Below, one piece after another: positions 942 to 61,930 of a DNA stretch of 64,000 nt. Each line of letters begins with the position of its first letter. Positions within the stretch are counted from its first letter, which is position 1. The position numbers were made by a program, and so were the translations under genes. Source of the DNA: Cliona cf. orientalis (Eukaryota > Porifera > Demospongiae > Clionaida > Clionaidae); the NCBI GenBank assembly GCA_963930775.1, contig OZ005689.1, positions 7,355,569 through 7,419,568 on the forward strand. Reading direction: 5' to 3'. Under the pieces are notes generated by a model. It was given only the letters and a program-made list of their open reading frames with translations, was not told the origin of the DNA and did not search any database.

Positions 942-3900
942 CTAATTTATAATTTCTAAGTCTTCGTCATCAAACGATGCCTCTTCAGTTTGTCCGTCTG
1001 AAGGAAAATAGATGCTATATTTCCCTGTAATAACATTATATGAAGAGACTACACCCTCATACCACTCTTCTTCTCCTTTCTTGCCTTGAAATTTCATTCT
1101 TGCACATTTACCCATAATTTCAGGGTGACCATTAGGAGTGCATTGAATAATCTTGTTATCTATGTTTACCACTTGACGTTTTGGAGCGGTACTTGAAGAT
1201 GGTAGGTTTGCTGCAGCTCGCTTCCTAGAGGATGTTGGAAAGTTTGCGGCACGGTCTGGTGGTCCATACTGACATTCAGGATCAGCTGTAAACTTTAGAC
1301 GCTGATTTTGCTTACTTATAGCATTATTTCTTCTAGCTTCTTCTGATCTTGACCTATACGATAAAGCTACTCCTTCTTGTGCTGTCATGTGCTTCAAGCA
1401 AGCGACTTTATCAACTTTGTAAACTTTGATCATCGCGAGTTTCAGGCATTGTGGTGTATCACTTTTGCAATCCTTGTTTCTACGTTCTACTGCATTGGTA
1501 CTGCTTGGACATCGCTTCCAAATATCATCATCCATCGCTGAAAACGACTTTGATAGCATCTTCAAATGGTTAGCTCTGGCCCACCACTGAGCCCAATGCT
1601 TTGCAGCTGACCAATTACAATTATCATCAATGAATTGGGCATCGTCAGTGCTACAGAGTGTTGGAAGGATATCTACAAGCTGAGCTACAGACCGGACACC
1701 ACAAAGGGTTTCAAAACAAGCAACGATACTTAATGTACTACTTAGTATTTGTATTTGTGAGCAAATCTTTAAGAATATATCCTTTTCTCTTTTTCTATCA
1801 TGCGAAGATAGTACCTTGTCAGCAACACGCTGGCATGATCGCTGCCAGTGAACTTTACATCCCTTAAGTAACTTTTCAGCTGTTCTCTTTCCCACCGCCA
1901 TCTTCAATCCGTTAATTTCAGCATCAGACCAGTCTGTAACTACACCTTGCAAAGTGGATCCCAGTTCAAAGTCTTCATTGCTACTTCTACACTTGTCAAA
2001 CACTTTCTTAAAGGACAATGCATAAGCAGCTGAAGTTTGTGAATCCAATCGCAATCTTGCCACAACCATCCATTCCATGGATATTTTATCAAAAGCCACA
2101 GCGTTGAAGATATAGGGATAATCTTTGCATTCGTCATACGTTATATCACACTGAATGAAATCAGCCTCACTGGCAACTTTGGTCATCAGAGGAGACATTG
2201 TAAAAATATATTTGATCCCTTCATCTATACCAGATGCTATTAAATAGGGCCGTCCATGCTGTCTGTATATAGTAAGCCTACTATCGTCATCCGCGCCTCC
2301 ACGTTGGTTGTCCTCAGTATCAATTGTATCAGCAACTTCTTCAAATTGCATTGGTGACCAGTCACGATCCATTAGTCCATGTTTTTTCTTTGTTTTTCTG
2401 ATCTCTTGAGACACCTTACCTGTGTGACTACTGGCGCTGTCAACTGCAGAAGGAATGAAACCTAAACCTTTCCCACATGCTATATCAGATGGTGTCAGTG
2501 TTGGATTAGCTGCAACTGCATCACTAATTCTTTCTTTAACATGTTGGGTAATTTTACTTGCTGCATGGATTGTATGATTGTGTAAATTCTTTGATGGTGA
2601 TTTTTGGCAACGAACAACCCCACCTATCCAACGTCTGTTATCGTTACTATCCTTTGGATATAAATATACAAACTCAACGGGACAATCAGTTGTTTTCTGT
2701 AGGGGAATGTTATGCTTCGGACAGTTTCTTCTTTCACGAATAGGCACTACATGCTTGCAGCCATCCATGGGACAGTATTTAACTCCTAAGCATGGTGCTG
2801 ACCGGTAGTATAATTCTTCATTCTTATCATTTATTTCAATCTTTATCAAACGGTCCTTATTGAGCTGCCCTTTAGATAGTTGTACATCCTTCCATAAAAA
2901 AATGGGGATCATCACAAGATTGGTGTAGGTTGGATACATTTTCTGCATAACAGAGCTGTTGAAGGGAAGATTTTGGCAATACACCCGGAAATTGATAACT
3001 ACTCTTATTATCTATTTTGATCCAATTTTCTTGCTCCGACATTAACTTTCTCACAATAGTTAAAACAAAGCTACCCTTTCCCACTCGTTTCTTTGTTATG
3101 CTGTGTGATGCTGAATCCTGGGTACATTCAACTCTTGGACCATTATCATTAGGATTTTTTGGTAGCATTACTGGTTCAGATTTACTTATTGCTTCAATAC
3201 CTTTCTGACTGGGATAGTACACTCCATTAACGGCATATAAACCACTACCTTTGATCATTGATTTGAGTTCTAATTGTACATATGAGGCAGCATAACATTG
3301 TTTGATAAATGTCCTCCAAAAATTTATATCTCTGCCCTTGTGATTTCCATATGAAAGACAATTTTTATCGTAAGCACTTGTCCAGGCTATACTAGAGCCT
3401 CTTATCCATTCAGCTATCTTAACCTCACCCTTCCCCCCAACATGGTTCATTGCATCAATCAAAACTTCCAGCTCTTCTTTATAATCCACTTTATCATCAC
3501 CCGTTTGCGAACAACAAACATCACAGCAATCTCCAGTAGCAACTGATTCAGATGTTTGCTCACCAAACAGATCTAAATGCAGCCTTCTACGACATATTCC
3601 AGCCAAGTGGGCATAGACATACTTCCATGACTCTGAAAAACTGGAAAGTATACGCTTGCACCTATCTTGATCGCTTAAATTATTTAAGACCCATGGATTG
3701 GCATGTCCCATGTCAGTTTTATGATACAGTATTGTAGCACATGCTTGAATACCATCTCTACCAGCTCGCCCCAATTCTTGAGCCCAGGAGAGCATGCTCT
3801 CTGGTACTCCATTCCTGATTACATGGCGAATATCAGGTTTGTCTATGCCCATCCCAAATGCTTTTGTTGCTACAATTGTTTGTACCTGACCCAATTTCCA

Positions 3901-5491
3901 CTTCACATATGATTCTTGTCTTGATGGTGCATCCATCTCGCCATAATAGCCAACTGCTTCTACCCCAATTTCTTGTAGAGCACTAACAATTGGCCCAATA
4001 TCTGCAATGAAGTCAGTATAGATGATAGATGAAGTGGAATCAATTATCTCTGCTGCTCGCTTTGCAAAGGAAATCACAGGTGGCGTAGACTTGTTATGTG
4101 GTAACTCTTCCACTTTTAGGGTTACATTGGGCCGATTCATTGAGTTTTTGCTGGTAATAGGATTTCTCAAAAGAAGTTTGATGTCTTCCTCCACGTTTGC
4201 TGTTGCAGTGGCTGTCAGTGCCATAATTGGAATGCTAGGAAAATCTGATTTCAACTTTCTAAGATTACTGAAGGCACTCCTAAAGTCATTCCACTCAGTA
4301 AATAGATGTGCTTCATCTATGGCAATAAGTGATAGCTCATTAGCTTGAATAAGGGAATGTAATCTTGGTTGATTAGCTGGCTTAGTTATCCACTCTGGAG
4401 TGACAAATATCAAATGCTCCCTACTTCCGGGCTTCAATGCATGCACTTCAACTTGTTTATCCAGTTGAGCTGACCCTAATAACACTGATGATATTCCGAT
4501 GCTATTGAGTTTATGCACCTGATCTTGCATTAAACTAATTGTTGGAGTTACAATTATTGCCTTCTTTTTGAGATAAACTGGAATAAACTGAAAACATAAA
4601 CTTTTACCGCTTCCAGTTGGTTGAATCACTAATGTATCTCTCCCTTCCAAAGCAGCTGTGATGATTGTTTTTTGAAACGGTTTAAAGGAGGTGAGAGTAA
4701 ATTTCTCAGCTAAGGTTGCAACTAGTGTGGCATGCTGGAATGAATCTTCAGCTGATGATGAATTGAAAATGTCATCATACTCATCGTCCATACCATATTC
4801 ATCTAGACCAGTTGCACTATCATCTCCCAGAGTATCCTTCTGGGCTAGAACCTGAATGTGTAATAATAATTATTAATTATCATTACTATTCTTAGCAATA
4901 ATAATTATTATGCACAATATCACAATAATATTATTAGCACCTTAGTTTCATGATCTCTTCTTTTTGGATGTTTATGCCATTGTTCATTGCAAGGTGCACA
5001 TCTTGATGACTTACAAGTATTACAGTAAATAGTAGCATGTTCGCCACATGATATACATTCATCTAACAATTCATCATCGGATTCTGTAAGTGAGCATATA
5101 ATAATATTATTGAATAACATTATGGTGGCATTGTATAAGTTTATCATTAGTTTTTAATTAATAATATACCTGTATCAGAGTCTCCATTTCCACCAACACC
5201 TTTTACTGATAGGTGAACACAACAATTATCTTGTAAACCATAGTCCTGTAATTTCTTGTTTGGACGTATGAGTTTAGTTCCATAGGATAACAACTGCATA
5301 TTAGTGGGAACACCAGTCATTTCTTCCACTTTCTCAAATAGGTGCTTTCCTAGGGCTTCTGGATCTGTATTTTCGATGATGCAAGTAACTATCCCTCCAG
5401 ATGGACATTTAACTGTAATAGTCAGAGAACTAGAACTAGGAATAGAATCTGACATTATGTCAGGAATTTCACTGTCACTAGACAATGCCAT
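942..5491 (-). CDS. Ubiquitin-like/B-box/RecQ helicase/MULE-like transposase fusion
   Basis: Exons: 5491-5170, 5083-4941, and 4851-942. Exon 1 (ATG at 5491) encodes a beta-grasp, ubiquitin-like domain (~residues 22-100). Exon 2 gives a B-box-type zinc finger (CxxC...CxxC...CxxC...H). Exon 3 starts a RecQ-type SF2 helicase with Walker A GSGKS, DEAH, TATAT and QELGRAGRDG. It then passes, through a frame change near 2880-2985, into a 600-residue transposase. That part has a WRKY/FLYWCH-like zinc finger ending HNHTIH and acidic residues in QCDITYDE and VTDWSDAE. It also has the MULE-like GCKVHW and STNAVERRNKD motifs and a Tudor-like C-terminus (WYEGVV...Y...G...DDEDLE). Total ~1445-1457 residues. 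The helicase and transposase frames differ by one base. Either a one-base slip in a run of seven T (about 2898-2904) or a ~40-base intron (GTATTG...TATGCAG) would join them. Presumed role: DNA transposition in the nucleus. Domain assignments are by motif only. Confidence 0.8.
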
Positions 5492-15461: not shown

Positions 15462-16210
15462 GGTACCATTAAATTGCGTGGGCGTGAGGCGGGGGATATG
15501 ACACCTAAACCACATCAAAGTCATTAGTGAGGTGCATGTTGTGTAACCACGCCCTTTTAATTGCACAGGTCTCAGGGGTGTGGCTGCTAGAGCCGGAAGT
15601 GTTCATTTAATATCCTCCATGGACCGGAAGCCGAGCCGGAAGGGAGGGGCCAGGCCACGCCCAAAACAGCCCCACCCTGTTCTCCAAGGACCACCATTCT
15701 CAATCAAGTGCCTACTAACCACCGGATGTCCACCGGAAGCCCACAATCAATCCCAATTAAAACACACAGCTTCCTCAAGGCCAAAACACACACAAACACT
15801 TGGAGGCCGTTCTGCCACACCGCCCACACAAGAGCTCACCTCATTTCCTGTGTGGGCGGAGTAACAACACGTCATCGCAACCACATCCGCTTCAAACCAT
15901 CGTCAGCTTCCGTCCGGCCGTACAGGCCCCTCGATCGCACCGCCGTACAGTGCCTCATTAACAGACATGGCCTCACCTTTGACCTCCTGCCACGCCCCCA
16001 AAGCCTCCTGGACGGGTTCAAAGGTCACCACCGCATCCGGGACACGCCCACCTATCGCCGCAGCCAAGTCCCCGGCCCCGATGTCCAAGCACTGGCCCGT
16101 GAAGCCACGCCCAATCGGAAGCAATAAAACCTGCATTAACGCACACGCACACACTCCACACAGTGCCAGGAACACGCCCACATGCTTAATTAGCTTTTTT
16201 TTTTTTTTTT
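15462..16210. mobile_element. GC-rich TTAA element, copy E1 (interrupted)
   Basis: Begins GGTACCATTAAATTGCGTGG after TTAA and is nearly identical to copies at 19827 and 20843. At its oligo-T stretch (~16195) it passes into a tandem array. The 21 bases that follow the oligo-T in the other copies (GTCGTTGCGGTTAATAGTTA...) reappear at 18677, so the array interrupts E1. It carries a minus-strand frame (16181-15903) with a hydrophobic start and GQCLDIG...VVTFEP. Confidence 0.8.
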
Positions 16211-19826: not shown

Positions 19827-20838
19827 GGTACCATTAAATTGCGTGGGCGTGAGGTGGGGGATATGACACCTAAACCACATCAAAGTCATTAGTGAGGTGC
19901 ATGTTGTGTAACCACGCCCTTTTAATTGCACAGGTCTCAGGGGTGTGGCTGCTAGAGCCGGAAGTGTTCATTTAATATCCTCCATGGACCGGAAGCCGAG
20001 CCGGAAGGGAGGGGCCAGGCCACGCCCAAAACAGCCCCACCCTGTTCCCCAAGGACCACCATTCTCAATCAAGTGCCTACTAACCACCGGATGTCCACCG
20101 GAAGCCCACGATCAATCCCAATTAAAACACACAGCTTCCTCAAGGCCAAAACACACACAAACACTTGGAGGCCGTTCAGCCACACCGCCCACACAAGAGC
20201 TCACCTCATTTCCTGTGTGGGCGGAGTAACAACACGTCATCGCAACCACATCCGCTTCAAACCATCGTCAGCTTCCGTCCAGCCTTACAGGCCCCTCGAT
20301 CGCACCGGCGTACAGTGCCTCATTAACTGACATGGCCTCACCTTTGACCTCCTGCCACGCCCCCAAAGCCTCCTCGCGGGGTTCAAAGGTCACCACCGCT
20401 TCCGGGACACGCCCACCTATCGCCGAGGCCAAGTCCCAGGCGCCGATATCCAAGCACTGGCCCGTGAAGCCACGCCCAATCGGAAGCAATAAAACCTGCA
20501 TTAACGCACACGCACACACTCCACACAGTGCCAGGAACACGCCCACATGCTTAATTAGGCCTAATAAGGCTTTTTTTTTTTTTTTTTTTTTTTTGTCGTT
20601 GCGGTTAATAGTTAAGAAAGAATGCTTTGATCTTGCTTTGAAGTGGGCAATTACCGGTGTTTTCTTCAGGGGCCACTTCCGGTCGCTAATTACACGCGCA
20701 TAATCATCCCTGGCTGATTCTAGACACGCCCACCTTCGACCAAAAGCACTCGTATGGCCTCTTCGGCCACGCCCCTTCACGATTCGCTAATTGAATTAGC
20801 CAATCCTGACGCTCACGCCCACGCACTTTGATGCTACC
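19827..20838. mobile_element. GC-rich TTAA element, copy E2
   Basis: TTAA then GGTACCATTAAATTGCG at the left. The right TIR (CGCTCACGCCCACGCA...GCTACC) is followed by TTAA (20839-20842) that is fused to the next copy. A 170-residue minus-strand frame (20780-20268) runs through the oligo-T as poly-Lys. Its later part (VGVFLALCGVCACALMQVL, GQCLDIG, GRVPEAVVTFEP) is also in E1 and E3. The function is unknown; it may be a captured gene fragment. Confidence 0.85.
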
Positions 20839-20842
20839 TTAA

Positions 20843-21842
20843 ATTGCGTGGGCGTGAGGTGGGGATATGACACCTAAACCACATCAAAGTCATTAGTGAG
20901 GTGCATGTTGTGTAACCACGCCCTTTTAATTGCACAGGTCTCAGGGGTGTGGCTGCTAGAGCCGGAAGTGTTCATTTAATATCCTCCATGGACCGGAAGC
21001 CGAGCCGGAAGGGAGGGGCCAGGCCACGCCCAAAACAGCCCCACCCTGTTCCCCAAGGACCACCATTCTCAATCAAGTGCCTACTAACCACCGGATGTCC
21101 ACCGGAAGCCCACAATCAATCCCAATTAAAACACACAGCTTCCTCAAGGCCAAAACACACACAAACACTTGGAGGCCGTTCTGCCACACCGCCCACACAA
21201 GAGCTCACCTCATTTCCTGTGTGGGCGGAGTAACAACACGTCATCGCAACCACATCCGCTTCAAACCATCGTCAGCTTCCGTCCGGCCGTACAGGCCCCT
21301 CGATCGCACCGCCGTACAGTGCCTCATTAACAGACATGGCCTCACCTTTGACCTCCTGCCACGCCCCCAAAGCCTCCTGGACGGGTTCAAAGGTCACCAC
21401 CGCATCCGGGACACGCCCACCTATCACCGCAGCCAAGTCCCCGGCCCCGATGTCCAAGCACTGGCCCGTGAAGCCACGCCCAATCGGAAGCAATAAAACC
21501 TGCATTAACGCACACGCACACACTCCACACAGTGCCAGGAACACGCCCACATGCTTAATTAGGCCTAATTAGCTTTTTTTTTTTTTTTTTTTTTTTTTGT
21601 CGTTGCGGTTAATAGTTAAGCAAGAATGCTTTGATCCTGCTTTGATGTGGGCAATTACCGGCCTTTTCTTCAGGGGCCACTTCCGGTTGCTAATTACACG
21701 CGCATAATCATCCCTGGCCGATTCTGGACACGCCCACCTTCGACCAAAAGCACTCGTATGGCCTCTTCGGCCACGCCCCTTCACGATTCGCTAATTGAAT
21801 TAGCCATTCCTGACGCTCACGCCCACGCAATTAAATGGTACC
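20843..21842. mobile_element. GC-rich TTAA element, copy E3
   Basis: Head-to-tail with E2. It lacks the first bases of the left TIR and joins E2 at a TTAA shared with the TIR. The right end ...AAATGGTACC is followed by TTAA (21843-21846). The body is nearly identical to E1. Confidence 0.85.
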
Positions 21843-38618: not shown

Positions 38619-40225
38619 CTAATAATTATAATTATAGGGTGGAGGCCCAGGAGGGCGTGCGGCCACACGAGCTCTCCCCCTCTGGAACTCGTTGTACCTC
38701 ACTGCGTTTCCTCTCACCCGCTGCGTGCGAGCAGCCAGGGCCATCCTGTGGTGAATGTAGTCTCTGTCAACGTTAACGTTGTCACTGGCAGTGTTAACTC
38801 TCCTTCCCCGGTTGCTGTAGTAATCCTGCACTTGCTTTGCCTGCATGAGAGAGATTAAGCATGCACAATGTCGATAACGTTCAATTTACAAAAAAATCAT
38901 TGGTGCATGCATGAAAATTGCTAAGTCCTAAATCTAAGTCTATAGAGTAAGACCGGTATCCCATTGCCTGCATGCTCAGGCAAACCTAACTGTTGTAGAG
39001 TGCATGCAATGATAGCTCTATGTCAGTACCGTTAGCTCTTGCTCTAAAACTGACTGCAGTCTCGTTTGCTGGCTTCTCCAAGATTGCGAAGTGACACCTG
39101 AATTTGTAAAAAAAAAAGAAAAGTATAGATAGCTATCATAGCTATTCTAAGCTAAAGTTACTCACGATCATTGTTGCAGTGAGGGAGAACATCACTGCAA
39201 CAATCGCCAAACACTGCACAGTAGCTGTCGCAGTAGCAGTTGCCAACACTGACATAGCAGGAAGAGGGTGGGTTGGTACTCCACTGACAGCATCCTATGG
39301 CCTTGCGATGAAAGCCACATGTGACTGAAATTTAAAAGTCAAACCAATATGCTATAATGCTCAGCTTTTTACTTTTATCCATGTGAATAATAATAACTGA
39401 ACATCATCACCATGCATGCATGCATAAAAATTTTATGATGTTGTCAATAATTACTATTACAAAGACTGCAATCAGTACCCTGAAATAGTATAATTATTAT
39501 GGTACAGCATGTAATAATTATTACAACTCAATCTTAGCTTTTAAATTAACTAAATTGCCTAGTTTTAGGGAAATATGGATCAGCACACTTTTGGGCTAAG
39601 CTTTAGTTTATCACTTGCATAATATTATATCAAGTACATGCACAGCCTTAGATGACATTGTGATTTCATGAATTAATAGCTATACATTATTATGATGCAA
39701 CATGAATCGCATGGATTCACAGTAAATTAGATTGAACTCACGGGCACAGGCATCAGGACAGCAGTCACCCCTGGTATGGCAGGACGTGTCACAGAAACAG
39801 AGATCTTGACCGTTTCTGACTTCACAATCCCCTGGTGATGTAATATTGCAACAGCCATAAATGCCCACATGTGCACACATCGTTGGATCTGCAGAATAAT
39901 AATAGCTGTTAATATTAGCCATAATTGTACTCATTGCATGCAGACATAGCAAAAAATTATTATCGATGGCATACTTACTACTACGGCAGGCAACATCCAT
40001 ACAGCAGTCACTATTGTGACTTAAATGGCAATCATGAGCACAATAACAGTTTCCATCACTAGCTCGGCAATCATCACGGTTTGATGACTGTGGACAGCAT
40101 GAGGTAGAATGACCAATGCTAGCACAGGTACCAGTTAGCATTGGTCCAGGAGGTGGAAGCTGAGCATAGGCAGGTGCAAGCGAAATAGCAATGAACACCA
40201 CACTGGCAAAAATTATCCACTTCAT
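38619..40225 (-). CDS. Secreted protein with three somatomedin-B-like domains
   Basis: Exons: 40225-39979, 39888-39742, 39324-39166, 39097-39030, 38840-38619; 280 residues. The start is the ATG at 40225, giving a signal peptide [17 protein letters not shown]. Exons 1, 2 and 3 each encode one Cys-rich module of SMB pattern. In each the Cys run as CC near the start, then CxC, then DCC and a final C (TSCCPQS...NCYCAHDC...DCCMDVAC; GCC...CFCDTSC...DCC; GCC...CYCDSYC...DCC). The last two exons encode a helical, Arg-rich tail (EQELT, RGRRVN, RGRARVAARPPGPPPY). There is no TM segment. Exons 1-3 are close paralogues of the first three exons of the kinase gene at 56-62 kb. Exon 4 is the least certain; its frame is chosen by phase. 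Confidence 0.85.
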
Positions 40226-41664
40226 GATCAATGAAATTAATCAACGGCTAACTATCTCTGTGCTAGCTGCCAATTTCTTTTTGAAGATACTAATTTTTGC
40301 AGAATCTGACTCCAATTTAGAGATTCTGAAGCGGCAATGGTATGAGTGTGTACCTTTTATTAAGGCCATGTATGTTATGATAATAATATTGCTGTAAGTT
40401 AAACAGCAATCTATTTGTTGAAAACGACTGCGCTATCAAAACTGTTATGTTTGTATTGCATATGGGAGACACAAAAGTGAAAGTGAAATATTGATAACAT
40501 CTGCCTATGGACTGCTAATCTAGTCGACTTTTCGTCAACACTGGGGATCTAAAATACCACAGCTGCAGTTCTATTGCATGTCAGTACTGACCATTGCATG
40601 AGGTAGCTATACTATAGCTGTTGATTCTGCATAATTTATGTTTTAAGGTGAAGGCTAGCAAACAGCTAGTGAGGCTTATACTATACACGTTTAACTCCAT
40701 AATCTCACACAATGAGACAGCTTTGCGGGTGGTAATAATACTAATTTAATACACACATTCATTATCATGGGACTCTATAGGGGACACAAAATTTAATAAT
40801 AATGAGATTTTATCCCAATGCCTTACCCCCCCCCCTCTTGTTCTATTGCCATAATTATTATTATTATTGTAAAGTAGTAGCTATGCATGGCTATGCGCCT
40901 GATTACCCCACACGTCCTCCCCCTTATGGAGCTCAAGTTGGTAAACAATGTCATATTATAGCCTAGCAGAGCCAGTAAATATTGTATTATCTTGATTTAA
41001 TCAGTAATTGCTGTAACAGTTATGCATGCACTAACCATTCATTGCGCATAATAATGATAAGAATATTATTAAGCATGTCTAGTACATAGCTCATCGTAAA
41101 TCTCATTAATTGTTATGATAATATTATGCACATGATTATGGTGTTGTTGACCTACCTTCTTGTGTGCAATACAAGATTGAAACTCTGCATGCTGGATCCA
41201 GAGGGCCGGGCCTGCCCGGGGGGTGAGGCTGGTTTATATTAACAAGTCTAGTGATTAATAGCTAAAGATGTCAAGATTAAAATAGTATTAGCATTAATAT
41301 TATATTATGCAAGGATAACTAATAAATTTAATGATGGCTTAAATGAAATGCATCTAAATTAGTTAAACAATATTTTAATTATTAGGACCATGCCCAGTCT
41401 GTTAGTAACTTTGAATTCAAATGTAAGAATACTAGGGCCTGGGGTGTCCTCTCTGCAAAGAAAGACAGAATGATAAGCTTGGACATGAGGCTATAGCCAT
41501 GAAGTGCAAAAGACTATACCTCATAACTGGCAAAGTGAAAGGGGACTGTCGATAATATTATCTTCAATGTCGTACATATAGGTGTCATTGTATCAATTAA
41601 TCTGTTAATAGCAACAAACAAAGGTATAAGAAGGAAATAACAATATCATAGCTGAATCATGTAG

Positions 41665-43146: not shown

Positions 43147-43255
43147 AAAAGCAAGCGTAGGGATATCCCTACAATCTTGTTTGTGTACATTTTGACTCTA
43201 CTATCCCTACTCCATCCTTCAATTTTATTCAATTGTTTTTATACTTATAATAATT
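43147..43255 (+). repeat. Dispersed repeat Z, copy 2
   Basis: GCAAGCGTAGGGATATCCCT and CATCCTTCAATTTT as in copy 1 (34973). Lies just downstream of the stop codon of the Death-domain receptor gene. Confidence 0.75.
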
Positions 43256-43323
43256 AATACAACTGAACTAATGAAAATTGGGGGATTCATTCAGACAATT
43301 GGTTACAAAAATTAATACTGCTT

Positions 43324-46300
43324 TTAAGATAATTTAGTATAAAGTTCATTGGCAACTTGCTTTTCACTCAATGCTGGAGTTTCAAGAGCAGTGAGGAGTG
43401 TTCCCCATGCAAACGCAGAAGGTCGTGCTTTTTTCCATCGTGTAAACATCTCTATGAAGGCTGTATCACACTGCTGCATGCCGTACGGTAGGCCTGCCTC
43501 GATACGTTCAAGGTCACTCACGTCAAGTCTTAGTTGTATACCAAGCTGTTTCCATTTTGTTGGGATTTTCGAAGCAACTTCGTTCATGAAGTCAGGTAGC
43601 TCAGGCTCTTGAGTCAGTACAGGATCATCCACTATGGAATGTGATCAATAACATTTAATAATTAACTGGAGAACTACCGTATAGCACCTTAATTTCGCGG
43701 ATAGCTAGCTCTCTACAAACTTTTCGTTGAATAAATTTCGCGGTTCCGGCCTGGTATGGGCTCGCACTCGTGGGCATTGGAATTTTCGTTGAATAATTTT
43801 CGCGGAAGCTGTTGTATCCGCGAAAACAGCGAAAATTAAGTCCCACGAAATTTAAGTGCTATACAGTATATACAAGTTCTAGTATCTAGCCTACATTCCA
43901 GATCTGATCCCACTGTATCCACATGATTAAATGAAGAGCGAGAACTCCTAGTTGAAGCACCATCGGAAGTAGCAAGAATCAATAGCATGACTCACCAAAC
44001 ATAATAATAAATAGAAACATACGCAGTTACCTTGAGGAACATGCTGTAAAATTATATTAATTTTGGTATTCTCTCTTGTTCCTTCAAACTGAAGACTGGC
44101 AACTGCTGATGTCTTAGCTTCATTGCTGCACACTGACAACACGAATCTTGGGGGGTACATTCTGTTCTCCTCCATCATTTTCAAAAGTTCATGCTCCTTG
44201 TTCCAAAAGTTTACATCATCAGCTCTGATCTGTGAGACCATAATAGTTCAGGCTAGCTATAAATTATATTATATCCAACTCACTCCTTCTTCGCCTTCTT
44301 GTACAGTCATAATCCATTCTTTAGTGCCAGTCTTTACAGTAACTTGAATTGGTTGAGAAGCATCTCTGAAATTAAACTTCTTAGTGCGGATGTCATATGA
44401 TTCATATCCATCATGACCAGGATGGCACAGCTGACCTTTGAATGTCTATACAGGTGTAGTATGCTTACATAATATTTCCAAGCTCACTGCTAATAGCTAC
44501 CTAGCTACATTAACTTACATCTATGCATGCCTGCAAGAAATTTGTGATTCCAATATTGATATTTACCACTGAACACTTAGGCCAAGGATTGGGGATTGCG
44601 TATATTAGACAATACCCCAATCTTGCAGCATTCTCTGGAGATACATTCGCCACCAAACATTTGAAGCAAAACTGGCTCGTGTGTAACACTCCACATGTTG
44701 TATCAGGGAATGTTACCCAGCCGTCTGCCTTTTGAAAATGAAAAACCTTGCTTCCATCTCTGTTAGCTCTGTAATTCAGATGATGAGCCTTGAGAAAAGT
44801 GATTTCATGTTTGAGAGGGTCATCATCTGTGAGGTCCGTAATGCAGTGAGGTAGCGTAATCAAAATAGGCTTTGGTAGTGGCTCCTTTGCTTGCATACAG
44901 ACCCATACAATTGGTGATATTGGCATCATATTGGATGGAAATTCGAATGGACCATATGGTACTATGCCTACTTCCAAATTTGACGTAGACGCAGATGGAA
45001 TGACTCCTGGTGGAACTTTCACCTCTACGCCATACTCTTCACAGGTGTATTCTGTACCATTGCTAGTCACAGGGATCGTTTCTCTTTTAATGAAGTGTAC
45101 AGATTCTGTAGGAGAGTTTAGTGATAAGCAATACTTTGTACCAAAGTAACAATAGCCCATACATACCCTTTATACTTGTTGATAAGAATGAGTTGTTCTT
45201 CTGATGTTGAGCAGAGTCAGGGAGATGAATTTTCGTTCTACAACGATGTTCTCCAGTTGCACTACACGTTGATCCCTCTGAACTTACTTCTTCATCTTTA
45301 TAATCTGTGATGAGGACAGAATCTTGGAGTAAATCAGCTGAAAATGAAACATTCAATTATTATATTAATTTTGCTACCTGTAATCATGTGAACAATGCAA
45401 ACCTTTAAATGGTATCAGTGGAAGATCCAATTGGTTCCTTTCAAGTTCCATACTGAATCGTGTAGAAGTTATAAGATCTTTATTTCTATCTTCTTCGAAA
45501 TTTATTAACGGACGATCCAAACTTGCATCTGTAGAGGTTGTGAGATTTTGAGCTTCTTCAAATAATATCAGAGGACGGTCTACTTGTTTCATCTCCAGTT
45601 TCATATTCGAACCTTTGGCATCGTCACTTGCTTCTTCCAGTGAAAGTAAGGGAATATTTTCATCAAATTCTTCTTCAAACTGTGACATATTTATAGCAAT
45701 TGATTTTGACTCGTGTAAATGATGTACGACAGGTGCTTGCTTGACAATGTGCTTCTTAACTTTCTTTGGTTTGATTTTGTGGATCTTCAGCTGAGATAAT
45801 GGTTCATCACACTCACTATCTCCCTCATCGACAATTTCTAGTTCCAAAGGATCAATTCGACGAACAAGATGACATTTTGTGACAGCGTTGGATGGTTTCT
45901 GCCCTGTGGCATCAGTGTCACTATCTAATGGTCGCGTAGACCTATATGAATACAATTCTCTCCTGCTTTGCCTGAACATACTGGTATAACCTTTGCGCTC
46001 TCCGGATCCTATAGAGTCAGAAGATAATGATTTATGTGCTGCAATTAAAGGATCCATACTACCAGTAACGTCCTGTCCTAGAGATGTATAGCACATATTC
46101 TTTGAATTAATGGATAGCCTTGGTTCACTAGTGCCTGCTTCAGACTCAGCAGCATCGTTTATCTCTGCAATTATAGTCAATTTTTCTGGTTGCATTTGAT
46201 TATTTCGGATTAACTCTTCTGCATCTGTATCCTCCTCAACATTAAGATCTTCAAGTGCAATTACAGTAGATGTAGGAGGATCCAAATTCGGTGGTTGTGG

Positions 46301-49300
46301 TAGTAGGGCTACTGTACTGTTTGACTCTTCACTCTCTCTATATGTAACTATGATTTCATCACGTGCGCGTGGTACTGGTTTAAGTTCAGGACATGCTGTT
46401 TCCTCAAAATAGTAGTTGTAATTATAAGGACCTTTCAAAGTAGGAAGTTCTACAACTGATTGTGAGGTATTTGATGAAACTGCATCAAATTGTTCATCTG
46501 GATGCTTGGTGATCCTTTTATATTTGAATCGAGTCCACTTACTTCCCATTGTTATCATAATTGTACCATGGTAAATGACCATCATGCAGAAAGCAAAGAG
46601 TGACAGCCCTACAGATGTACTAACTATAGCATCAATTGAGTATCCTTTCAAGATAGCTAACAAGGATAAAAGAGCTAGACATGTTAAATTTAGATGAACA
46701 GCTGCCTCAAGTATGCTAAACGCCCATTTTCGATAGATTCCACCAAATAAGCCATTCAAAACTATCAGTAAAATACTACTAATAGCAATCAAAACAAGAT
46801 TAATAGCAGTATCTGCTTCGGTGCTAGTTATTAAAAGAATACTGTACAGAACCGTTGTGAGTCCATTCCATGACCGAGCAATTATCTTATACTTGTACGG
46901 CGCCAAATATGCATCAAATATGGGCATAAACTTCCAGAACCGTAGACAACAAATTCTATATCCTCTTCTGGTTATTATAGGAGTGCAGACTATGATAAGG
47001 ATGTATGGAATGATAAAAAATATCAACAATCCACTAGATAAAACCATCAAGATGATGTAACTTGAGTGGTTGTAGTTATTTCCATCATAACGCCAAACTG
47101 AGAAATACTCTTCATTCTCATAGTGAAGGTTAGTGTATAGAAAAATAGCAATGGTTGCCCTGAAAAGTTTAAAAAATGAAATATGGAGTAATGTTGATAT
47201 AATTGAGACACCGCTGTTTCCCATTAATCGTGTCAGTCGTGTTGAATGTCGGCTTAAAATAATTATGATACCAATCATCATCAGAAGATAAGATGGAAAA
47301 ACAAACTGTAGGAATGCTTTCTGAAGCGCATCCATTCCATCATAAAAGCAAGCTTCAATACCAAAGTCCAGATTCATCCACGATACGAATACTGTTAGAG
47401 GATCAGTATGTCGATTTTTAAAAAAGAAAGTATCATTCGCATGAATAACATTTGCATAAAACATAAACGGGTTAGGTGATCCTTGTGATATCGTCATGTT
47501 GAAGAGTCTCAAAAATGCAATCAAACCTAATCCAGCTGCTCCAAATAAGAATACCAGTAGTGCTGCGTATGCATTACTACACTCAATACAGTTAGCTCGT
47601 CCAAGTGAAACACTGAGTCCAGGCACACATTTGCCACAAAGGATACCACATCGATTAGATGAACATTGTGCATCTGGATCATCTAGCGAGATACGTTTAA
47701 ATCCTTCAATACAGTATCCAAATGGACAGCTAAAACTATAAAGTATTGAATCGTTTTGTATAGTACTGTTATCACTATTGGTTCCAATCCAAACATCACT
47801 ATTAATTTGAAACATTTCATCATCTATGTGGCAAGTTATTCCTAACTGGTGAAACTGAGGAATGCAATCACACCTTGGAGATGTTTGTTGCAGAATGGTA
47901 AATCCAAGTGGACAGGGCAAAAGAAAGATTAAGAAATTTAGAGGATAAGCTGCACTGTAATCTACAATAGACATAGTGACCATTTCAACAGGATTGTAAG
48001 AAAACAGCATGAACTTCAAATTGGTACAGGAATATTGGGTCTTTTGATATTCACCAATAATATAACTTGAGTTAGAAAGGAAATCTTCATTTTCAACCAT
48101 GACACTGACAACACTTGGAACTGTTTCTCGCTTGTAATTTACAGTGGCTACCTGGAGATTAAAGGTACTTCCAGGAGCAACAGAAATGCTTACATTTTGC
48201 ATGTCACATTTCGGTTTATTATTTGTACACACACAAATTTCTTTTGCTATAGGCAGTGATGACGAACTTATAAATGATTGTGATGTATCCTGAATGTTGA
48301 AAATGATACCATGAGTGCTTGATTGAGCACAGGGATCAGTTAGTTGTCGTGGTCCATAGACAGCATTGCCACCATATTTTGCTTTGTTGCTTCTAAACAC
48401 TATTTGAGGTTGGACATCATCATACTCGATACTCTTAAAGGTTGCAAAACAAACAGGCGGAGTCTGAACTGAAATCAAGGGGCTCTCATAAATATACACA
48501 GCACCACCGTACTCATAAGCAAGATTATTATCAAAAATAAGGTATGATCCGTTCCATAAGAATAATTCGGAGTTTGATAATTGTAGCCCACCACCTCTGA
48601 TAGCACTGTTGCTAGCAAAAATCACAGTATTAGCAAATGTTACCTCAGAACGATCAACAAAAATTCCACTGCCTGTATTGTTTATCAATGTGCTGTCACT
48701 AATTAGTACATTTGCATCTTCCAATACAATAGTAGCATTCATACTGGTGAAAACGGGAGTAAATACTTTGTTGTGCCCAATAATTGTCTTGCTCATATTT
48801 ACAGATAAAGCTCTATTACTGCCCGATGTAAATAAAGCAGACCCACCTTGAATTGCTGCATTACGGTAGAGTACACAATCATTTATGTCAATAAGATAAT
48901 ATGCCGCTATGAAGTTGGAGGTCAGTAAATCATGCATACTGATGAAAATTCCACCACCCATGGATGCACTGTTCTGCTCAAATCTGCATGATGTAAAGGT
49001 GATCATATTTGTATCGTTGAGACCAGTTTCAAAAATATCACTATCAATAGCTGTATTGGTGAGGTTTATACTAACCGCTCCACCATAAAGACTGGTATTA
49101 TTGAAAAAGTTGCATTCATGTATCTCTGCCATAAAGTTAATCAGTCCATTGATGTCAAGATGAAGACCACCAATTCTACCTAAACCATTCTTGTTTTCTT
49201 TAAATAAACAATTTTTCACATTTAAGTGATATTGAGATGTGAGGGAATCTCCTTCAATCATAAAAGACATACCAGCTGCAATATTATTATCAATTGCCAA

Positions 49301-50221
49301 TCCTTTCATTACTACACTCTTTTCTAGTTGAAAATGGAAATCTTGGGATCGATTGTGCTGCTTAACATAAACAGCGATATTGCCACCATGGTTATCAATG
49401 AAAGTAGTATTAGTCAGAGTAACAAAGATACTTTTACATGATTGCTGATAATCAACATGCAAACCACTAGCTTTATTTCCACCACTAGTACCATAGGCAA
49501 ATGTGGAATTTTCGATGAGCATTAGAGTATAATCATTACGTGAGGCTGTACAGTCGTCGTCGTAGTACATTGACCATGACAGTAGCATATTACCACCTGA
49601 TTGACTTGAATTTGAGATAAACGAGCAGTCTGAAAGATGAGAAGTTCCAAACATATCGATACCTATCATCCCATACTGAACAGAATTCTTCACAATCATG
49701 CCATATAAAGTAACGTTGAAAGTGTTAATAAAGAGTAATGCAGCAGCACTGAAACTTCCTAAATTCCCACCGCAATTTTCAATCAACACATTACGTAGAT
49801 TCAAATAGTGAACATGCGTGAACACAAATCCATATCTTCCAATGCACTGAATTTTAGTTACCGGTTCCTGCAAGTCTCTTGAGAAATTGTTACTTCCAAC
49901 TATCGATAGATTTTGAAGACCATTAAACATTATTGAATTGTGTAGAAAATGGGTTCCACTATCTAACAGTAATATAGTGTTATTCTTAATAGGAGTATGC
50001 CTGGCATAATAATCCAATGAACAGTTAAAATTTTCAGCACATACATGTAAGGAATTCAGATTTGTCAACGACCTCACATGCAGTACCATGCTATCACATC
50101 CACGGTGCACCAAAATACCAACAAAGAGAAGTAGCAAGGGACCACATTTCTGGAAATTTCTGTACAAAATAATTTTTACAATGTTAAGTCTAGTACAGTC
50201 CTACCCAGCACTATCATCCAT
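43324..50221 (-). CDS. Beta-helix/polytopic membrane receptor with ZU5 and Death domains
   Basis: Exons: 50221-50205 (17 nt, tentative), 50159-45403, 45337-45167, 45105-44519, 44445-44284, 44229-44031, 43631-43324; 2066 residues in frame. Order: signal peptide; right-handed beta-helix with Pmp-like GGGI/YGGAV/GGNA turns (~30-640); Cys-rich stalk (~745-860, CGILCGKC). Then a polytopic membrane domain (~865-1205, some 7-8 segments), a long acidic/Ser-rich tail (~1206-1640), and a ZU5-like domain (~1655-1760, YGVEVKVPPGVIP). A UPA-like stretch leads to a C-terminal Death domain (~1965-2063, WKQLGIQLRL...WKKA). No ATG lies in frame before a stop just upstream of exon 2, and a good acceptor precedes it, hence the small first exon (45-base intron). 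ZU5-Death is known in UNC5 and PIDD1. Coupling to a polytopic beta-helix receptor suggests surface sensing linked to death-fold signalling (inference). Confidence 0.85.
43675..43869. mobile_element. MITE in the last intron of the Death-domain receptor gene
   Basis: ACCGTATAGCACCTTAATTT and AAATTTAAGTGCTATACAGT are inverted ends. The interior has repeated TTTTCGTTGAATAA and TTTCGCGG motifs. It explains why this intron (399 bases) is far longer than the others (45-73). Confidence 0.8.
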
Positions 50222-59200: not shown

Positions 59201-61930
59201 ACCAAAGGAACAATGAAACTATGTGTATAAAATAGATCAGTGGTGGGGTATATTATTCCTGATATAAATAATATTATTAATATCACACACCTGTTGACAA
59301 ATACATACACTATTTAATATAATAATGTGCTCACTGAATGGGTTCAGTCTTTTTAGAGGGCATCTTTGCAGTACGATGGTATCGTCGATACAAGCAGGAA
59401 ATTGAGAATAAGATTATAGTAGCTATGAGAATAGCCAATACGGTTCCTACGACACTGCCAATTAATTCAGTATTCACAGATCTGGGAACAGACTCTGTAG
59501 ATCGTTGTAACACAAAACTTAATACAAAGATTCATCTTGCAGTAAAATTCTTAATTATTATAGTGACAAAATAAACATAACTTGTCTAGTAACTGCTAAC
59601 TGAGGTGATAGGGCTACTAATCCAGTGCTATCTTACTATAGAAGAGCGCTTTGAGCAATCAGTTACTAGAAAGAAGTTCATTATTCATATACCTACTATA
59701 GTTGAACCAGTGGGAGTAACTCACCTATGATTTTCAGTTGGATAGATGCATTGACTGAGCCAATGAGTACATTATTCTGTAGAATTAGTCTCCCTCCATT
59801 TAGTTTGTGTGCTTCTGAACTGACAATAACATCACACCTCCAGACTCCAGCATCACTCAATACTGTGCGAGTAATATTTAATTGTACTACTTCTGGTCCA
59901 TTGTCAAGGTTGTATCTAGCATTATCTACTACTATAGTTCCATCAGGGGCTGTCCAGGTGATGGTGGCTTGGGGATTGCTGTCCAGACCAGTGCCACAGA
60001 CAAGGGAAGCACTGCCACCCAACAATGCAGAAGAATATGTAGGACCTTCTGTGATGAATGCTGGTGGATCTGCAACAGTATAATATTAAATGACACCAAT
60101 TTTAATTTATACAGGAACTGATCATGATCCAGAAATATTGCGAGGTGGGTATCTGGTCAGGATTTTATATTATAATAGCGCCATATATAGTTTGGGGGGA
60201 GGGGGGAAGGGAGCCTTCCTCTGCCCCACTCCCTCTGGTCCGCGTCATTATATGAGCTTATTAATCCCACACAATGTAGCAATACTTACACAACACATCC
60301 AAATGAAAGCTGCCAATATCACTTCCAACTTGCTGTGCGGTATTATCCAGCAAGAAATTGGTTGCATTGACTGTATAGTTACCAGAAATGTTTCTGGTTA
60401 CTAACAGGAAAGTCACATTGGAGTAGGTGAGAGATATATTATGATCATCTTGTAGTGGTTGTCCATCTTTGCTCCAGTTGAAGATACTTAGTTTAGGGAA
60501 AGGAGCAGGGTCTTGACCAAGGTCAATTGTAACTTCTGTATCCCCTTCCTGGATTCGTACATGAAGTGTTTTACGCAATTTTGGAGGGCCTGAATATTAA
60601 CAGTATAATCACAGTTAACAACTGGCTAATAATATTAAATTTGAACTTACGGTAAATTCTGAAGAAAAAATGTGCTTGTGCAGGGATTGTACTACTTCCA
60701 CAAAAAATTGTCACCTGATCCAAATCATTACTCATATTTAGAATTGTTAATCTATTTCGAAAAGTTCGAGTGGGTACAGTTCCAGGAATTGGATCGCCAC
60801 TGAAATGGAAAATTTCTGGAATGCTACTTAAAGTCTGAAACCTGGAGACACCTCTGAAGTTTGTTACACTCCATTCAGTGTTAATCTGATTCCTCGTACT
60901 AGTAACAATATCACAAGTGATGGTGGTTATATTTTTGGCACCTTCGAAGTCCACTATCAATGAATCGCTAGGAGGGTCAGTTATTTGACCTGAAATGATT
61001 GATATTAATTTATAATAACTGACTTAGTCTGTTGATACTTAATGTAGTATCATTAGATTCTATGTGTAAAGAATTTTAACTAACTATGGCACTGTTGTCG
61101 TAATACATCGATACAGCAGTCACGGAAGATGACGCAATACTTATCACAGTAGCAAGTGCCATCAGGGACATAGCATGAGTATGATGGTGATGTTTGGCAG
61201 CAACCTCTATGTTTACCAGCTCCAGCACAAGTTCGAGTTGAAACTACAATAATGATAATAATACACACAGTTGTACAACTGTTATGAATTCTATCTACAC
61301 AGAATTTAAACTAACTAATAATTATAAGGCCAGGGCAGTTTTGTGGTACTGGGTTGTACATCAATAATTATGAGCTTCATATTTAGCTTACTAGGACAGC
61401 CATCGGAACAACAGTCACCCCTATGGTGGCAGGAGACGTCACAGAAACAGATATCTTGACCATTTCTGACTTCACAAGCCCCTGGTAATGTACTATTGCA
61501 ACAGCCGTAAATGCCCACATTAGCACACGTACTTGGATCTACAGGAAATGAACCATTAAGTCCGCATATAGCTATACAAAATTACAATTATTGTATAATA
61601 ATAGTAGCACTAAATTATCAGGATTTGAGTGGGAATCAAGCTACTCAGGAATCAATATTCAGTTCAATACTTACTTCTAGGGCAGGCAACATCTGAACAG
61701 CAGTCATTATAGGAAGGTAAAAGGCAGTCATGACCACAATTACAGTTTCCATCACTAGCTCGGCAAGCAGCAGGATTTGATGACTGTGGACAGCATGAGG
61801 TAGAATAGCCAATGCTAGCACAGGTACCAGATGGTATTGAAGGCAATGGAGGTGGAGGAGGCTGAGCATAAGCAGAATATGATGCAAGAGAAATAGCAAT
61901 GAACACGCTGATAAAAATCTTCCACTTCAT
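56259..61930 (-). CDS. Receptor tyrosine kinase with three SMB-like and three Ig-like domains
   Basis: Fifteen exons: 61930-61675, 61538-61392, 61243-61085, 60989-60651, 60589-60290, 60069-59725, 59494-59335, 59180-59140, 59084-58962, 58697-58611, 58530-58310, 58214-58102, 58034-57869, 57482-57340, 56412-56259; 917 residues, every junction in phase. Order: signal peptide [17 protein letters not shown]-like 1-3 (~30-187); Ig-like 1-3 (~188-515); TM (~525-550) ending in YRRYHR; juxtamembrane; tyrosine kinase (~610-890). Kinase motifs: [18 protein letters not shown] (VAIK Lys), [31 protein letters not shown] and [10 protein letters not shown]. All catalytic residues are present. Ligand unknown. 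Ectodomain exons 2-6 are all phase 1-1, which favours exon shuffling. The gene lies 715 bases downstream of a polytopic receptor-like gene. Confidence 0.92.
56493..56580 (+). repeat. Short tandem repeat, ~22-bp unit
   Basis: About four copies of CATATTGCACTAACCGCAAA with a variable end, in the last intron of the kinase gene. Confidence 0.85.
56687..57083 (+). CDS. Possible two-exon micro-gene nested antisense in the kinase intron
   Basis: ATG 56687 opens a frame to a good donor after 56795 (AAG/GTAAGC). A strong acceptor (TTCTTCTTCTTTTCAG) ends at 57051 and continues the frame to TAA at 57083. The product would be 46 residues ([14 protein letters not shown]...), with no known domain. The stop lies at the edge of a palindrome. 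Could be a non-coding transcript or chance. Confidence 0.25.
57085..57208. repeat. Long palindrome with CCTCGGG/CCCTCG centre
   Basis: ATAGTTATATCACGTGCACT, then GGGATGTATGGCATTTATTG, is mirrored around a centre reading CAGCCCTCGGGCCGC. Same style as 36535-36677. In the last intron of the kinase gene. Confidence 0.85.
58743..58930. mobile_element. hAT-like MITE in a kinase-gene intron
   Basis: CAGGCACTGATCCAG at the left and CTGGATCAGCCACTG at the right. The interior has repeated GGGGTGGCTA blocks. Its ends resemble those at 27968. Confidence 0.55.

Follow-up and report, generated by a model that had tools for sequence, protein, structure and literature searches.

A putative multi-pass receptor gene with a ZU5-Death tail in the sponge Cliona cf. 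orientalis and two paralogues of the same design

In the sponge Cliona cf. orientalis, a gene on chromosome 1 is predicted to encode a single protein with, in order, a signal peptide, a beta-helix, a Cys-rich stalk, a polytopic membrane domain, a tail, a ZU5 domain, a probable UPA domain and a Death domain. The gene occupies 43324..50221 on the minus strand of the window, the whole stretch of 64,000 nucleotides analyzed here (contig OZ005689.1, positions 7355569-7419568). At the level of the genome, the same fusion is present in three genes and its signalling module is under selection. It is reasonably probable that the gene encodes a multi-pass cell-surface receptor carrying ZU5-UPA-Death, which senses an outside cue and releases its Death domain. 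A preliminary description of this DNA had correctly recognized the beta-helix, membrane domain, tail, ZU5 and Death, but had overlooked the UPA-like region between the last two.

The exon model was derived from the DNA alone. Its seven exons are bounded by GT donors and AG acceptors throughout, with intron phases of 2, 1, 1, 0, 0, and 1, and the coding sequence of 6,201 nt, whose stop codon ends at 43324, stays in frame over all exons and predicts a protein of 2,066 residues, which agrees with the end-to-end frame first described. The predicted exon 1 (50205..50221), with its ATG at 50221 and GT donor at 50204 (phase 2), begins the signal peptide. Exon 2 (45403..50159) is a single open frame comprising the remaining signal peptide, the beta-helix (residues ~28-620), the Cys-rich stalk (~621-866), the membrane domain (~870-1205), and most of the tail. 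Exon 3 (45167..45337; open, phase 1-1) holds the end of the tail, which spans about 430 residues and finishes near residue 1648, ahead of ZU5. Exon 4 (44519..45105) encodes ZU5, with a Q-F-C motif near the end of the domain, while exons 5 (44284..44445) and 6 (44031..44229) encode the first and second halves of the UPA-like region, and exon 7 (43324..43631) the Death domain and the stop codon. A candidate polyadenylation-type signal, AATAAA, is located on the same strand ~95 nt beyond the stop (43224..43229).

Strong support for a single-protein architecture comes from two further genes with the same domain order, on chromosomes 9 and 5, that emerged from the genome-wide search proposed in the preliminary description. 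In both paralogues, the beta-helix, membrane domain, tail and ZU5 share one uninterrupted frame, of 1,849 codons on chromosome 9 (L069) and 1,773 codons on chromosome 5 (L070). Downstream of the chromosome 9 frame, both UPA halves and Death were detected in order by tblastn; downstream of the chromosome 5 frame, the second UPA half and Death were detected in the same way, and the first UPA half was placed by eye from frame and splice sites. The introns after ZU5 occupy the same places with phases 0, 0, and 1 in all three genes (paralogue boundaries set by eye), and the predicted lengths of the window, chromosome 9 and chromosome 5 proteins are 2,066, 2,068, and 1,956 residues. Identities for the three pairs of genes are 56, 34, and 33% in the membrane domain, 58, 37, and 40% in ZU5, and 58, 31, and 29% in Death. 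The values of the front and rear halves fall in step, suggesting that both halves diverge together and supporting one protein. Compared with the chromosome 9 paralogue, exon 2 shows 37% identity in its N-terminal part and ~55-56% in the membrane domain, and exon 6 shows 65%. For this pair, the ectodomain is 39% identical, compared with 45-62% for the other folded parts; for the window and chromosome 5 pair, it is 27% identical and not the lowest (other folded parts, 21-37%). The tail pattern D-[TI]-D-A-T-G-Q has three matches in the 217 Mb genome, one per fused gene, compared with one for the reversed control. Among at least 107 membrane-domain places, exactly these three genes have a ZU5 on their own strand no more than 15 kb downstream, as judged against at least 92 merged ZU5 places; rarer combinations may lie beyond the matches listed.

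The signalling exons also exist as copies elsewhere in the genome. Exons 4-7 and their introns are duplicated on chromosome 7 with a DNA identity of 86-95%, in three pieces within window 43246-45113, and exons 4-6 are copied on chromosome 5 near 9.80 Mb, with no Death exon within 1 kb. Between the window and the chromosome 7 copy, Ka/Ks is 0.18, 0.02, 0.22, and 0.22 for exons 4 to 7 (overall omega 0.17), and it is 0.22 over the three exons shared with the chromosome 5 copy. These low values independently support the exon assignments of the module. A gap of one base is present in the Death exon of the chromosome 7 copy (C7:8005500-8012500; C7, C9 and the like denote chromosomes), apparently close to the start of the exon. 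Two frames lie upstream of this copy, one of 481 codons that ends in a hydrophobic stretch and one of 162 codons. This module was possibly attached to another, unrelated receptor by exon-cassette transfer. A split ZU5 copy at C9:4445362-4445944, closely like the ZU5 of the chromosome 9 receptor and ~180 kb away from it, resembles a broken partial duplicate.

Hydropathy averaged over 29 sequences revealed eight clear hydrophobic segments in the membrane domain, the upper figure of the 7-8 transmembrane (TM) segments first counted, and marginal segments around residues 902 and 935. With segment ends set by hand, the loops after TM2, TM4, TM6, and TM8 contain on average 2.1, 6.3, 1.3, and 3.1 K+R, compared with 0.1, 1.3, 0.1, and 0.3 D+E. 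Positive even loops, combined with an ectodomain outside, fit nine crossings and a cytoplasmic tail. The sequence thus supports the predicted topology with the C-terminus in the cytoplasm. The failure to match a named family, as reported from the first inspection, holds for this domain: no 7tm or TRP Pfam profile matched among the 29 relatives at E up to 1, and its profile matched no solved structure in the PDB. The other Pfam matches to the membrane domain were single and at chance level. Besides the beta-helix models, the sole recurring Pfam match was DUF7630 in the stalk (20 of 29 relatives, best E 7.5e-5). In a search for membrane-domain relatives in viruses and prokaryotes, pattern matches numbered 120 in viral contigs and 217 in genome contigs, and tblastn confirmed no relative among them.

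The front half belongs to a large family of short-tailed beta-helix multi-pass proteins. The membrane-domain search of the genome scored at least 107 places of 1,356 first-look candidates, a few of them with an internal stop, and the DNA pattern for CF[YF]DGM yielded 117 genome matches and no control match, 100 of the 117 being used for the family counts by pattern. On chromosomes 1-12, 97 pattern matches cover 22 of 76 scored places and the other 75 are counted by pattern alone, giving a combined total of at least 182 distinct places (107 by protein score and 75 by DNA motif). A rough estimate from the overlap, based on two samples that are not independent, is 335 places on chromosomes 1-12. 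Ordinary tails run 38-94 residues to the stop in all 27 readable loci, and a 28th locus has a stop inside the match. The ZU5-UPA-Death module had no match at E up to 0.1 in any of these 28 loci with 1.5-kb flanks; splicing to more distant exons is conceivable. The ordinary relatives are 26-34% identical to the window gene over the beta-helix and membrane alignment, compared with 45% for the chromosome 9 fused paralogue. They share with the fused genes the ectodomain type, the CGxC stalk and the membrane domain, but differ in their short tails, which lack a match to ZU5-UPA-Death.

Other C-terminal effectors were looked for by eye in two of six non-fused loci with frames above 1,440 codons (C13:6276603 and C10:3353387); both have a stop after the tail and no ZU5. 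The short tails do not read as dileucine signals, as [DE]xxxL[LI] fits 7 of 27. An ITIM-like pattern fits 8 of 27, and many short tails end, as judged by eye, in a motif of the T-x-S-V-x-L-x-E-P-L-L type.

The ectodomain has the composition of Pmp-type repeats. It contains 10 FxxN motifs (shuffle mean 3.8) and four GG[ASG][ILVF] motifs (shuffle mean 0.28), the highest values in 2,000 shuffles being 10 and four, and Chlam_PMP matches were found in 25 of 29 family relatives at E up to 1 (best 1.6e-8). Its 17 N-glycosylation sequons are unremarkable (shuffle mean 10, maximum 22). The ZU5 of the window gene is taken as real because both paralogues exceed the Pfam cut-off, with 27.4 and 33.1 bits, and because a profile built from 29 ZU5 domains of the sponge genome finds the ZU5 of ZO-1 (E 7.3e-8) and UNC5B (E 0.22) in the PDB. 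The nearest Death domains in the PDB are those of CRADD (E 0.031) and FADD (E 0.23), both weak matches.

Several observations weigh against the proposed receptor. All three Pfam matches of the window copy fall below the curated cut-offs, namely Chlam_PMP with 20.2 against 20.6 bits, ZU5 with 20.4 against 21 bits, and Death with 22.0 against 22.6 bits (E 1.8e-4), and the spliced C-terminal piece scored 18.9 bits for ZU5 and 18.2 bits for Death. The Death domain of the chromosome 5 paralogue is likewise below the cut-off (21.4 against 22.6 bits), and that of the chromosome 9 paralogue has no Pfam match, yet is ~57-58% identical to the window Death exon. The UPA-like region matched neither Pfam nor the UPA of UNC5B, PIDD or ankyrin in the PDB. 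Since no UPA profile matched, it is named from its position and exon structure, two conserved exons of the right size in the right place, with the position and phases (0-0) of exon 5 conserved; its first half is 21% identical (10/47) between the window and chromosome 5 genes, the counterpart in the latter being assigned by eye. The TM3-TM4 loop, outside in the proposed topology, is balanced instead of acidic (K+R 2.9, D+E 2.6). The donor of exon 2 is weak (GTTTGC at 45402), and a better-looking alternative, by eye, is present in the same phase at 45453 (GTATGG), which makes the last 17 residues of exon 2 uncertain. Exon 3, the least certain exon, can be skipped with the frame retained, and no specific match to it was seen in the paralogues. 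These doubts leave the end of the tail unsettled, and the predicted domain order is unchanged by them. The clustered, diversified copies for which a test had been suggested are characteristic of the ordinary family: of the 182 places, 98 have another no more than 15 kb away. The three Death-domain genes do not fit this pattern; their nearest counted kin are at 3.0, 4.2, and 1.0 Mb, and they stand isolated among the counted places. The best ZU5 tree unites the fused genes with the copies of the window module, with weak support (67/38). The best membrane-domain tree, for which the sample was picked by similarity to the window gene, firmly pairs the window and chromosome 9 genes only (100/100); on the favourable side, a single clade of the three fused membrane domains is not rejected (approximately unbiased test, p 0.437). 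One ancestral fusion would be the simplest reading of these trees; given the weak support of the ZU5 clade, repeated fusion is possible.

In the proposed receptor, a right-handed beta-helix of Pmp-like repeats would stand outside the cell on the Cys-rich stalk, and eight clear helices with at least one marginal segment would bring the C-terminus into the cytoplasm, where a long acidic tail, probably disordered, would bear the ZU5-UPA-Death module. The ectodomain may sense a surface or environmental cue, non-self glycans or microbes having been the first suggestion, and sensing would free the Death domain from ZU5/UPA, a release that has been proposed for UNC5. The exposed Death domain may then recruit Death-domain partners, leading to a caspase or NF-kB-type output. 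The genome is rich in Death exons, 150 of 1,292 candidates having scored, and has 47 scoring places for the caspase domain, of which some are fragmentary or contain stops; the caspase search is a check that the pathway exists and not evidence of binding. At C9:269641, C9:274158, and C10:6802856, a caspase domain is followed on the same strand by a Death exon 0.3-2.7 kb away, which makes Death-caspases plausible partners, each pair being a candidate for one gene. C9:269641-270869 and C9:274158-275412 are candidate Death-caspases.

The rival readings concern either the gene itself or its function. It is very improbable that the locus consists of two genes, one for a beta-helix multi-pass protein that stops after exon 2 and, downstream on the same strand, one for ZU5-UPA-Death, the case that the preliminary description had named as fatal to its model. 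This division would suit the weak exon 2 donor, the in-frame stop nine codons past it, the AATAAA motifs at 45506 and 45484, within the coding part of exon 2, and the chromosome 7 duplicate of exons 4-7, which is without a membrane-domain match in the stretch read. However, neither paralogue has an intron or stop between the membrane domain and ZU5, and the tail motif, the intron phases and both halves of the protein travel together; on the single open frames of the paralogues, the two-gene reading was rejected. A short isoform of the window gene is possible. A decaying or non-functional chimera is scarcely credible. Partial ZU5 copies do exist, as in the split copy at C9:4445362 and the ZU5-UPA copy on chromosome 5, which lacks a nearby Death exon, but the window gene runs through 2,066 codons without a stop or frameshift under the exon model, and its signalling exons show an omega of 0.17 and 0.22 against two copies.

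As for function, an UNC5-style developmental guidance or dependence receptor, in which the Death domain would be held closed by bound ligand, loss of the ligand would kill or move the cell, and there would be no immune role, is unlikely. In its favour, the three genes are isolated, the signalling module is under purifying selection, and the ZU5-Death tail is as in UNC5. Against it stand the large, clustered and repeat-based membrane and ectodomain family, which suits diversified recognition, and the reduced ectodomain identity of the window and chromosome 9 pair, although the window and chromosome 5 pair does not share this pattern. Somewhat more doubtful is a membrane-tethered relative of PIDD and FIIND proteins, whose ZU5 would cut itself at the F-C bond with Cys as the nucleophile in place of Ser, so that activation would release a UPA-Death fragment from the membrane. 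All 29 aligned ZU5 domains have this Cys, and in 26 of them a His stands two residues before it; the window gene and both copies of its cassette have Q-F-C and the two paralogues H-F-C. According to PMC3210808, Ser, Thr or Cys is able to start such reactions, H862Q and H862A affected Nup98 cleavage slightly, and CARD8 S295Q had no impact. However, the PDB alignments end ~40 residues before the site, which makes the register with the HF/S of PIDD uncertain, and the position just ahead of the Cys holds F in 14 of the 29 domains, C in 13, T in one, and S in one. The Cys may also be structural, as UNC5B has a disulphide in the same region (PMC3210808). A bolder proposal, speculative and rather improbable as a whole, is an undescribed class of animal receptor, in which a possibly channel-like multi-pass sensor from a beta-helix family of several hundred members would feed directly into a ZU5-UPA-Death module that cuts itself by means of a Cys; the Death fragment would come free upon contact at the plasma membrane or the symbiosome membrane, and the Death module would be an exon cassette that has been transferred to one or more unrelated genes for membrane proteins. 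The preferred reading is still the multi-pass receptor that would release its Death domain from ZU5/UPA upon sensing a cue.

UNC5 has an Ig/thrombospondin ectodomain and one TM segment, PIDD1 is soluble, and NLRP1 and CARD8 are cytosolic; to our knowledge, animal death-fold receptors are single-pass or cytosolic. UNC5 (3g5b) shares with the sponge gene the character of a membrane receptor and the C-terminal order of ZU5, a UPA-like region and Death, and is the UNC5B hit of the ZU5 profile noted above. The sponge gene differs in its beta-helix, its 8-9 segments and the long tail before ZU5, and no Ig or thrombospondin ectodomain matched in Pfam in the window gene or the 29 relatives. PIDD1 also ends in ZU5 and Death, and its cut motif at the end of ZU5 is possibly paralleled by Q-F-C/H-F-C. 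However, PIDD1 has leucine-rich repeats and is cut at HF/S after its ZU5 domains (PMC3210808), whereas the sponge protein has one ZU5, Cys for Ser, membrane segments, and no Pfam match to N-terminal leucine-rich repeats in the window gene or its relatives. The FIIND of NLRP1 and CARD8 is likewise a ZU5-UPA followed by a death-fold domain, but this domain is a CARD and the site is SF/S (PMC3210808), compared with Death in the sponge gene. The passenger domains of chlamydial Pmp proteins have the same FxxN and GGA-type repeats forming a beta-helix (PMC11166332 and PMC10715098). The sponge gene has introns and no autotransporter barrel by Pfam, in the window gene and relatives alike, and no evidence was found for descent from a bacterium.

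The statement that ZU5-Death is otherwise known from UNC5 and PIDD1 proved too narrow, since at least 38 genomic ZU5 places exceed the Pfam cut-off, several of those read have other N-termini, and NACHT-ZU5 combinations are published (PMC12909245). At C12:864323 and C6:9913776, ZU5 is, by eye, in frame with other membrane-type sequence; one of these loci has a signal-like start and one hydrophobic segment, and the other has two segments and a start with a weak likeness to a Sina zinc finger (E 0.45). Over 5 kb upstream of two further ZU5 loci, no member of the beta-helix/membrane family was found (best tblastn E 0.22); one of these loci has a 629-residue frame and, on the same strand, a frame that by eye is Death-like.

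The window holds further features outside the gene. On the minus strand, Ig-like exons at 59696-61023 probably belong to another surface protein gene (Ig_3, E 4.7e-7 at 59696-60085; neighbours at 60261-61023 by eye), and a secreted-looking Cys-rich frame of 186 residues at 39680-40240 contains two similar CC-rich units and has no Pfam match at E up to 1; we take the spacing of these units to resemble that of somatomedin-B. The minus-strand frame at 2872-4869 is presumably a RecQ-like helicase, judging from its motifs, and is overlapped by a 689-residue frame (942-3011) with no Pfam match. Near-identical frames of 124-178 residues occur three times, as seen by eye, at 15591-16127, 19956-20330, and 20960-21496, suggesting a recent repeat element.

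In a search of the literature, whose coverage left out most subscription papers, no description of this architecture or of a beta-helix multi-pass family in sponges appeared among the matches listed. The ZU5-Death tail is known, and the surprise lies in the multi-pass beta-helix front from a large family. Sponges are known for varied death-fold architectures (PMC8195603), so the combination is surprising but not without precedent. C. cf. orientalis hosts intracellular dinoflagellates of the Symbiodiniaceae (PMC12639293), so the gene may be considered a candidate sensor of symbionts or microbes. From the three fused genes it can be read on which side of the membrane the C-terminus of the family lies and one pathway that the family can feed. 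If the proposal is true, such a receptor, multi-pass with a Pmp-like rod on the outside and ZU5-Death on the inside, would add to the known ways of coupling surface contact to death-fold signalling.

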